Notes under the pieces: generated by a model | What the model saw: the letters and a program-made list of their open reading frames with translations, nothing else | What the model was told of the DNA's origin: nothing | Database searches by the model: none | Origin: Herpetosiphonaceae bacterium | GTDB lineage: Bacteria; Chloroflexota; Chloroflexia; Chloroflexales; Herpetosiphonaceae | Assembly (NCBI GenBank): GCA_013538855.1 | Contig: JABXJS010000050.1 | Span: 1-43,133, forward strand | Length of the DNA: 43,133 nucleotides | Direction: 5' to 3' | Position numbers and translations under genes: made by a program | Part shown: positions 6,817 through 9,144 of the stretch, piece after piece | Layout of the letters: every line of letters starts with the position of its first letter | How positions within the stretch are numbered: the stretch's first letter is position 1

Positions 6817-7572
6817 CTAGAGCACGTCGTCATCCACCCCAAAAAACTTAAGCCACTCGTCAATCTCGTCCGGGTGCACCGGCGGCGGCGGCTTGTGCAG
6901 CGGCTCGCCCTCCGAAGAGATCGGATGCGGCCCGCCCCGTGAGCGCCGCACACGTCCGTCGGCCTCGCGCGGCACCGGATTGTTGTTGGTTGGCTCCGGC
7001 TCAGATTGTACCGCAAACCGCGGATCGGTTTTTTTCTGCCGACGGCTGGGCAGTGGATTTGGCTTGGGCTTCTTTTGCAGATCGATCGGCGCTTGCGCCA
7101 CATCCTCATCAACGCCAAACACGTCGAACCACTCGCCGAGCTGCTTGCCCGGCACATGGGCGTGGGCCGCAGCGCGCTCGGCGTCAAACGGCGGCGGCGC
7201 ATCCATGGCAGCCAGAATCGCGGCAAACTCATGCGAGCGGATGACGCGCGTCCCCACCTCGTCGGCCACGCTGGTGAGCGCCCGATCTGACGAGACGAGC
7301 ACCCACTCGCGTGGCGAAACCAAGCGCCGAAGCTGCTTAATAATCTTTGTGTCGGCATCCGAGGGCGAGCGCGCAAACTGCACGCTGACATGGTTGGTGC
7401 TGAGCACATTTTGGCCTGGCACGCCGCGATCAAACACCACCACCACGCGCCGGTTGCGGCGCATGGCGAAGCGCCCGAGAATCATCACCAGCTTGGCCTC
7501 GTCGTCGGGATCGCTGAGTTTGAGTGAGCGCATCTGCCCAATTAAGTTGTGTCCATCGATTAAATACGGCAT
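6817..7572 (-). CDS. NYN/PIN-like ribonuclease-domain protein (YacP/Rae1-related)
   Basis: A 251-residue protein whose first 120 residues form a NYN (PIN-like) nuclease domain: LIDGHNLI with Asp6, VVVFDRG with Asp48, SDADTKI with Asp72 and Asp74, and SSDRAL with Asp96. These are the acidic residues that bind the metal in the family, whose best known member, YacP/Rae1 of Bacillus, cleaves mRNA at the ribosome. The C-terminal half is low in complexity, rich in Pro, Arg and Asp, and holds two similar WxxxFGVDxDV segments (about 143-153 and at the very C-terminus), perhaps short binding motifs. AGGAGG precedes the ATG. First gene of the probable operon with the isomerase and hydrolase. An RNA substrate is inferred from the family only. 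Confidence 0.8.
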   Translation of the reverse strand: MPYLIDGHNLIGQMRSLKLSDPDDEAKLVMILGRFAMRRNRRVVVVFDRGVPGQNVLSTNHVSVQFARSPSDADTKIIKQLRRLVSPREWVLVSSDRALTSVADEVGTRVIRSHEFAAILAAMDAPPPFDAERAAAHAHVPGKQLGEWFDVFGVDEDVAQAPIDLQKKPKPNPLPSRRQKKTDPRFAVQSEPEPTNNNPVPREADGRVRRSRGGPHPISSEGEPLHKPPPPVHPDEIDEWLKFFGVDDDVL

Positions 7573-7620
7573 GCGCGGCCTCCTGCCAGCTATACCAATT
7601 TACGTTGTATACCGATCAAT

Positions 7621-8150
7621 GCAAAGCGGTGTGGGGCGCAGCCTCACGCCCCCGGCAGGGTTGGCCCTGCCCCTGCCCAACCCCAGTATGTCCGTTCACG
7701 TAGGCAGCCGCGCAGGGCAACGCGGTGTGGGGCGCAGCCTCACGCCCCCGGCAGGGTTGCACTCTGCCCCTGCCCAACCCCAGTATGTCCGTTCACGTTG
7801 GAAGCCGCGCAGTGCAACGCGGTGTGGGGCGCAGCCTCACGCCCCCGGCAGGGCTGCACCCTGCTTGACCGCGCTAGACCACTGTACGGCAGATTGCGAG
7901 CTCTGCCAAGCGAGCGGGCTAGCTGTCGTACTACGCCCTCGGTAGGGCTGCACTCTGCCCCTGCCCAACCCCAGTATGTCCGTTCATGTTGGCAGCCGCG
8001 CAGTGCAACGCGGTGTGGGGCGCAGCCTCACGCCCCCGGCAGGGTTGGCCCTGCCCCTGTCCGCCCCGGGAAGCCCGTTCACGTAGGCAGCCGCGCAGTG
8101 CAACGCGGTGTGGGGCGCAGCCTCACGCCCCCGGCAGGGTCGGCCCTGTC
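7621..8150. repeat. Tandem array of about six 96-bp units with internal hairpins
   Basis: Near-identical units begin at 7621, 7717, 7814, 8005 and 8100; the unit between 7910 and 8004 keeps only its second half, its first half being replaced by unrelated sequence (about 7861-7932). Spacing is 96, 97, 191 (two units) and 95 bp. Each intact unit contains short inverted repeats: CCGCG with CGCGG, GGGGCG with CGCCCC around a 7-8 base loop, and in most units GGCAGGG with CCCTGCC around TTGG (7654-7671 in the first). GGGTTGG can instead pair with CCAACCC, giving an alternative fold. No mobile-element ends are seen. Confidence 0.85.
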
Positions 8151-8230
8151 CAACGGTGAATCGATATACACCATTGGCTGTATTATAAACAATCGTGTTC
8201 ATGATACCTGATTAAACATAACCTGGATGC

Positions 8231-8278
8231 GTGGAAAGAGTGTGGAAATCTTGTGGAATGCTGTGGATGGCCGGTGGA
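8231..8278 (+). repeat. Five helically phased GTGGA direct repeats
   Basis: GTGGA occurs at 8231, 8242, 8253, 8263 and 8274, that is at steps of 11, 11, 10 and 11 bp, all in the same orientation; the longer shared form is TGTGGA(A/T). The sequence resembles the complement of DnaA boxes (TTATCCACA or TTTTCCACA) but none of the five is a perfect nine-base match. An AT-rich patch lies directly upstream. It could be a DnaA-binding cluster or a phased transcription-factor array for mscS. Confidence 0.6.
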
Positions 8279-8280
8279 TA

Positions 8281-8326
8281 GTGGCATCTGGCCTAGATTC
8301 TGCTTTGGCCATCTAGGCGGAGCCAC
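8281..8326 (+). promoter_or_regulatory. Hairpin in the mscS leader
   Basis: GCCTAGAT (8291-8298) pairs with ATCTAGGC (8311-8318) around a 12-base loop, and an outer GTGGC (8281-8285) pairs with GCCAC (8322-8326). It ends 14 bases before the AGGAGG of mscS. It may be a leader structure; no known riboswitch class is recognised. Confidence 0.4.
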
Positions 8327-8355
8327 CGCTATTGTAAAAAGGAGGAAGTTGCGCG

Positions 8356-9144
8356 ATGAACTGGAGTCTCTACTTTGAGCGCTGGCGTCTAACGCTCATC
8401 GAGTACTGGCCGCGGCTGCTGGCGGTCGTTGTTATTTTGTTGATTCTGCGCTGGCTGGTGCGGCTCGCCAGCCTGGCTACCCGCCGCGTGCTTGGGCGGG
8501 TTGAGCTGGCGGTGGAGATCGAGGACCTGATTGCGCGCTCTGTGCGGATACTGGTTATTATCGCTGGCTTTATCATCATCTTGCTGGTGATGGGCTGGGG
8601 GCAGCTGGCGCTATCGTTTGTGGCCGGCCTAGGCATTAGCGGGCTGGTGATCGGCTTTGCGCTGCAGGACATCACCAAGAACTTTGCTGCGGGCTTGCTG
8701 CTGCTCTTTCAGCGCCCATTTCGCATCGGCGACCGTATCGCTATTGCTGGCGAGGAGGGCATTGTGCAGGAGCTGGCGCTACGTGCAACGACGATTCGCA
8801 CCGATGATGGCCGCGAGGTCTTTATTCCCAACGCTACCATCTACACTGGCAACATTGCCAACCTGACGCGCTACACCTATCGGCGCTACATGCTGCCGCT
8901 CAAGCTCAAGGGCACAACGCCTCTGCCAGAGGCTATTCCGCTGCTTGAGGCAGCGCTGCGCCAGAGCAAGCCGGTGCAGTCTCAGCCAGCAGCCGAGGTG
9001 CTCATCACCAACGTCGCGAGCGATCCCATCGAGGTCACGGCCCGTTTTTGGCTGCCTGCGCGCGATATTGATGCGCAGCTGGTGCTCTCACAGATCGCGC
9101 AGCACCTCCGCGCCGTAGCGAGCGAGCGTGGCTGGCTCGTGTAG
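8356..9144 (+). CDS. Small-conductance mechanosensitive channel, MscS family
   Basis: A 262-residue membrane protein that would open under membrane tension and release solutes on osmotic downshock. Residues 15-35 and 55-75 are hydrophobic helices; the pore helix region GLGISGLVIGFALQ (about 92-105) is Gly/Ala-rich as in MscS TM3, followed by the conserved DITKNFAAGLLLL, the beta domain (RPFRIGDRIAIAGEEGIV, then TTIRTDDGREVFIPNATI) and a C-terminal alpha/beta domain. Length is close to E. coli MscS (286). AGGAGG precedes the ATG. The leader contains phased repeats and a hairpin. It converges with rex, with the rex terminator in the gap. Confidence 0.9.
   Translation: MNWSLYFERWRLTLIEYWPRLLAVVVILLILRWLVRLASLATRRVLGRVELAVEIEDLIARSVRILVIIAGFIIILLVMGWGQLALSFVAGLGISGLVIGFALQDITKNFAAGLLLLFQRPFRIGDRIAIAGEEGIVQELALRATTIRTDDGREVFIPNATIYTGNIANLTRYTYRRYMLPLKLKGTTPLPEAIPLLEAALRQSKPVQSQPAAEVLITNVASDPIEVTARFWLPARDIDAQLVLSQIAQHLRAVASERGWLV

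Follow-up and report, generated by a model that had tools for sequence, protein, structure and literature searches.

A helically phased GTGGA array upstream of mscS as a candidate operator, and a likely replication origin of Chloroflexales beside a nuclease gene

What is the role of five evenly spaced copies of GTGGA that lie upstream of a mechanosensitive channel gene in the genome of a Herpetosiphonaceae bacterium? They occur in a window of 43,133 bp, which is the entire contig C261 of a draft assembly of 6.3 Mb in 285 contigs. A preliminary description of the window offered three readings of the repeats: a small origin of replication, a DnaA-titration site or a phased activator array for mscS. 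Here we ask whether the array is a product of chance, whether it marks the origin of this genome and, if not, which protein might bind it.

Results

The array is real and one of a kind in the assembly

All five repeats were confirmed on the + strand in the same orientation, with starts at 8231, 8242, 8253, 8263 and 8274; the array thus spans 8231-8278, in steps of 11, 11, 10 and 11 bp. The longer core first proposed for the repeats, TGTGGA(A/T), held only in part, as GTGGA is present in every unit and the leading T is not, the preceding base being C, T, T, T and G in turn. Written as 9-mers the units are, in order, CGTGGAAAG, TGTGGAAAT, TGTGGAATG, TGTGGATGG and GGTGGATAG, which match the DnaA-box sequence TGTGGATAA (see below) at 6, 7, 6, 7 and 7 of 9 positions.

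First-order Markov simulations of the window, 100 in all, gave at most 3 GTGGA copies within 50 bp, and none of 40 simulations contained four or five copies of any 5-mer at steps of 10-11 bp. The genome-wide expectation for such arrays of five GTGGA is about 8e-8 (for GTGGA alone). When the 6.3-Mb assembly was searched for GTGGA triplets in 10-11 bp steps the array was the sole match, and the array region used as a DNA query against 60 relatives matched only itself. Pairs of the form TGTGGA-N3..6-TGTGGA were not enriched in the source genome compared to a reversed-pattern control. The array is therefore confirmed as real, far beyond chance and one of a kind in this assembly.

The array lies upstream of mscS and is missing at the mscS genes of the relatives compared

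The array sits in a 783-bp gap that separates two divergent genes. The likely target is the mscS-family mechanosensitive channel gene at 8356-9144 on the + strand (PF00924, 1.5e-23), whose ATG is 78 bp downstream of the array; the other possible target is the NYN/YacP-domain gene at 6817-7572 on the - strand (PF05991, 1.1e-12). The AT-rich 65 bp that had been described upstream of the repeats is indeed there: the patch at 8158-8222 is 32% GC compared to 61% for the contig, and only 0.07% of 65-bp segments are equally AT-rich. This patch is a possible promoter region, and a scan found no consensus sigma-70 promoter. Upstream of the patch, at 7620-8140, is a GC-rich tandem repeat of 97 bp in 5.4 copies, one member of a dispersed family that has 66 matches across the genome.

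Two further elements were seen on the mscS side of the gap. A weak sigma-54-like element, TGGCCTAGATTCTGCT (GG-N10-GC), lies at 8289-8304 on the + strand and is speculative; as a reading that stands alone, a sigma-54 promoter was rejected, for although the genome carries rpoN, the site is weak. An imperfect hairpin built on GCCTAGAT / ATCTAGGC can be drawn in the mscS leader at 8272-8334 (+ strand). The leader folded no better than shuffled sequences (z -0.7) and had no match in Rfam, and a structured RNA leader was rejected on these grounds.

The nearest relatives used for comparison included six Herpetosiphon genomes, among them H. aurantiacus DSM 785. The MscS proteins of these closest relatives are 58-59% identical to that of the source genome, and no array was found within 500 bp upstream of mscS in the six Herpetosiphon species or in more distant relatives; neither was a GTGGA array found near the other mscS-family genes of the source genome. 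Any control exerted through the array would therefore be, at most, a lineage-specific control of one gene, and the evidence on the array comes from one genome of its genus, in draft assembly.

The origin of replication probably lies elsewhere

The suggestion that the array is a small origin was not supported. GC skew is -0.022 to the left and -0.021 to the right of 8.2 kb, so that there is no switch of sign at the array within this one contig of a draft, and a search of the window that allowed up to 3 mismatches found no parS. The AT-rich patch adjoins the array, as AT-rich DNA does at an oriC, but the locus lacks the conservation in relatives that an oriC should have; it is the locus described next that is conserved instead. 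The longest DnaA-trio run by the array was 1 on either flank and strand, a test of low power since the likely origin cluster of the same genome itself gave only 2.

When 158 genomes of the class were searched by pattern, phased GTGGA arrays turned up at 34 places in 27 genomes, compared to 7 places for the reversed control. All six Herpetosiphon genomes have a single array, in the same intergenic region on the 3' side of a gene for a bifunctional nuclease (BFN, PF02577), and a GTGGA cluster is present at almost all BFN loci of the order. At 25 of the 34 listed BFN loci (L139-L173; L155 and L171 are one locus listed twice, so the distinct loci are one fewer) three same-facing GTGGA, most of them inside TGTGGATAA, are spaced at exactly 21 and 20 bp, and two further loci have spacings of 22/22 or 22/20. 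The exact 21/20 spacing is lost in Herpetosiphon. The source genome retains it, with copies at L169:10836, 10857 and 10877 (about C133:22835-22880) in a DnaA-box cluster 3' of BFN at C133:22715-22890 (L169:10716-10890). An inverted repeat, CCTAGAT/ATCTAGG, is found both in the window and in the BFN cluster of Herpetosiphon; it was taken as a coincidence because the half-sites stand in opposite order.

The parS sequence TGTTTCACGTGAAACA was found in 37 of 50 genomes, at 1-4 copies per genome. Two exact and five near parS sites of the source genome are at C133:6438-10007, at a distance of 12-16 kb from the BFN gene and about 13 kb from the DnaA-box cluster; the 10 kb around dnaA, which is on contig C6, contain none. 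A separate small group of boxes is present upstream of dnaA. With parS at C133 and none in the window or around dnaA, the origin of the source genome is most likely on C133 rather than at the array. In single-contig or near-complete genomes parS and BFN are 2.0 kb (G028), 1.7 kb (G030), 31 kb (G007) and 60-100 kb (G013) apart, and in drafts that have both on one contig about 2-28 kb; several drafts have them on separate contigs, which is uninformative either way. The BFN locus of Chloroflexus aurantiacus is beside the only exact parS of that genome.

The 5,258,541-bp contig of C. aurantiacus was also sampled for skew, cumulatively, in 40 pieces of 20 kb. The cumulative skew has its minimum near 2.10 Mb (-7.8) and stands at -7.6 at BFN (1.967 Mb), while dnaA, at 0.75 kb, is in the middle of a slope. 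A two-arm step fit was best near 3.0 Mb, leaving 0.721 of the variance compared to 0.751 at BFN, which indicates that skew taken by itself is noisy. In the samples from H. aurantiacus skew goes from minus to plus near BFN (5.50 to 5.63 Mb), but a positive stretch at 5.0-5.2 Mb puts the global minimum of the cumulative curve at 4.875 Mb; here the fraction of variance left by the fit was 0.741 at BFN, 0.812 at dnaA and 0.644 at the best position. Taken with the conserved spacing and parS, the DnaA-box trio on the side of BFN is likely to be the oriC of Chloroflexales, away from dnaA. In the literature searched, on Chloroflexota origins and on DUF151 with oriC, no paper was found that assigns an origin to BFN.

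Three other groups of sites came out of these searches. Three TATCCACA DnaA boxes, two of them 11 bp apart, are present in the parS region of the source genome at C133:9184-9271. Another family of the class has phased GTGGA clusters in a conserved neighbourhood (L113-L115), possibly the origin of that family, with neighbouring genes that from their translations were named by eye as metallophosphoesterase-like, beta-clamp-like and ligase-like. Finally, a GTGGA triplet at L106:9929 (G030) is flanked by CRISPR-type repeats and is therefore probably a spacer and not a DnaA array.

The repeats resemble weak DnaA boxes

At both the BFN and the dnaA loci of the order the GTGGA core extends to TGTGGATAA. 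Within the BFN clusters 108 of 218 same-strand GTGGA pairs are in 10.5-bp phase where about 21% would be expected, and the spacings peak at 20-21 and 41 bp; the BFN loci are related by descent and these pairs are accordingly not independent counts. The flanks of the five array boxes score higher than those of random GTGGA (p = 0.037), yet their mean score is 0.3 compared to 2.1 in true clusters. Only the flanks are informative in this comparison, since the clusters of the profile were chosen by GTGGA density and the core is given by construction. Thus, with 6-7 of 9 matches and a flank score well under that of true clusters, there are no good DnaA boxes in the array.

Weak boxes are nevertheless used by DnaA. 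At E. coli oriC ATP-DnaA assembles cooperatively, head to tail, on clusters of boxes that match only weakly (PMC5742627). Because ATP-DnaA fills weak same-direction boxes there, DnaA is the leading named candidate for the array, whose spacing is that of a low-affinity DnaA filament, with boxes in the same direction at about 10-11 bp. The array shares with the low-affinity arrays in both halves of oriC a row of imperfect same-direction boxes (PMC5742627); it differs from them in being outside the origin, with no flanking high-affinity box, parS or skew switch, and in that DnaA binding here is only predicted. With the BFN module of Chloroflexales it has in common the GTGGA core, the single orientation and the helical phasing; unlike the good TGTGGATAA boxes of that module, 21 and 20 bp apart at 25 of 34 listed loci, those of the array are weak and 10-11 bp apart.

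Discussion

The array may be a helically phased operator upstream of mscS, to which one protein would bind cooperatively and head to tail. The best single candidate for this protein is DnaA, which could occupy the repeats as a row of low-affinity boxes in steps of about 11 bp (a 9-bp box and a 2-bp gap). We hold this reading tentatively, at somewhat below an even chance; the array, its phasing, its uniqueness in the assembly, its intergenic place and its weak likeness to DnaA boxes are observed, and from them we infer the binding of a protein, its identity as DnaA and the role of mscS as target. Against DnaA, the best box agrees with TGTGGATAA at only 7 of 9 positions, and the array is missing at the mscS of the relatives compared and at the remaining members of the mscS family in this genome. 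Were a DnaA filament to form on the array it would couple the expression of mscS to the replication initiator, through its level or its state; that channel expression is indeed tied to the initiator in this way, by a row of weak DnaA boxes outside the origin, is, on these data, rather unlikely. Two of the readings first offered, the phased activator array for mscS and the DnaA-titration site, survive: the place of the array upstream of mscS fits regulation, its boxes are weak matches to DnaA boxes and its phasing is like that of DnaA arrays.

Another regulator is nearly as likely as DnaA. The array could be an operator for a different cooperative regulator of mscS, for example a response regulator of the OmpR/PhoB family or an enhancer-binding protein that acts on a putative sigma-54 promoter at 8289-8304, and the weak match to DnaA boxes leaves room for such a protein. 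OmpR/PhoB sites are 7-bp direct repeats with 4-bp gaps, in steps of 11 bp, and the array resembles these operators in its direct repeats, its 11-bp steps and its place upstream of a stress-related gene, mscS being a plausible target in osmotic stress. It departs from them in having five repeats, an odd number being unusual for dimeric response regulators, and in having no match to a known consensus. RpoN is encoded and the weak GG-N10-GC is just downstream of the array, but matches as good as this occur by chance at 145 positions in the window (both strands). Furthermore, since the array is unique, the regulator would have no second target of such architecture.

It is quite unlikely that the array is neutral sequence, a degenerate 11-bp minisatellite beside the 97-bp tandem repeat. 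The dispersed repeat directly upstream would suit such an explanation, but at a score as low as 30 Tandem Repeats Finder still did not list the array. Moreover, GTGGA is 100% identical across the units and the spacer positions are, by our own count, about 37% identical between units, a pattern that is not expected from neutral decay and does not have the look of a decayed tandem duplication. Nearly random spacers beside identical cores suggest, in this one genome, that selection on the core, and not a recent duplication, accounts for the pattern.

A site like datA of E. coli, which would titrate or inactivate DnaA with no role in the regulation of mscS, is very doubtful. The array is, like datA, a cluster of DnaA-like boxes outside the origin, on a contig with no origin marks, and its boxes share one direction, as the essential datA boxes do (PMC5742627). 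However, the minimal region of datA includes an IHF site as well as two high-affinity boxes (PMC5742627), whereas the array has no high-affinity box, and it was not found at the mscS of relatives. That the array and the AT-rich patch together form the chromosomal origin is extremely unlikely, for although AT-rich DNA adjoins phased DnaA-like boxes, the good boxes of this genome cluster on C133, next to BFN and on a contig with parS sites, and the window has neither parS nor a skew switch; the DnaA-trio test, of low power, gave no run longer than 1 beside the array.

If the array is bound by DnaA, it would be a rare example of a DnaA filament site outside the origin that controls an osmotic-safety gene, and would, if true, link control of the cell cycle and of turgor via DnaA and mscS; we know of no earlier description of a link of this kind. 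The check on the origin, for its part, pointed to a likely origin for the whole order, a conserved DnaA-box trio beside a nuclease gene and not beside dnaA, which gives a concrete and testable position for the origin in Chloroflexus, Herpetosiphon and their relatives.
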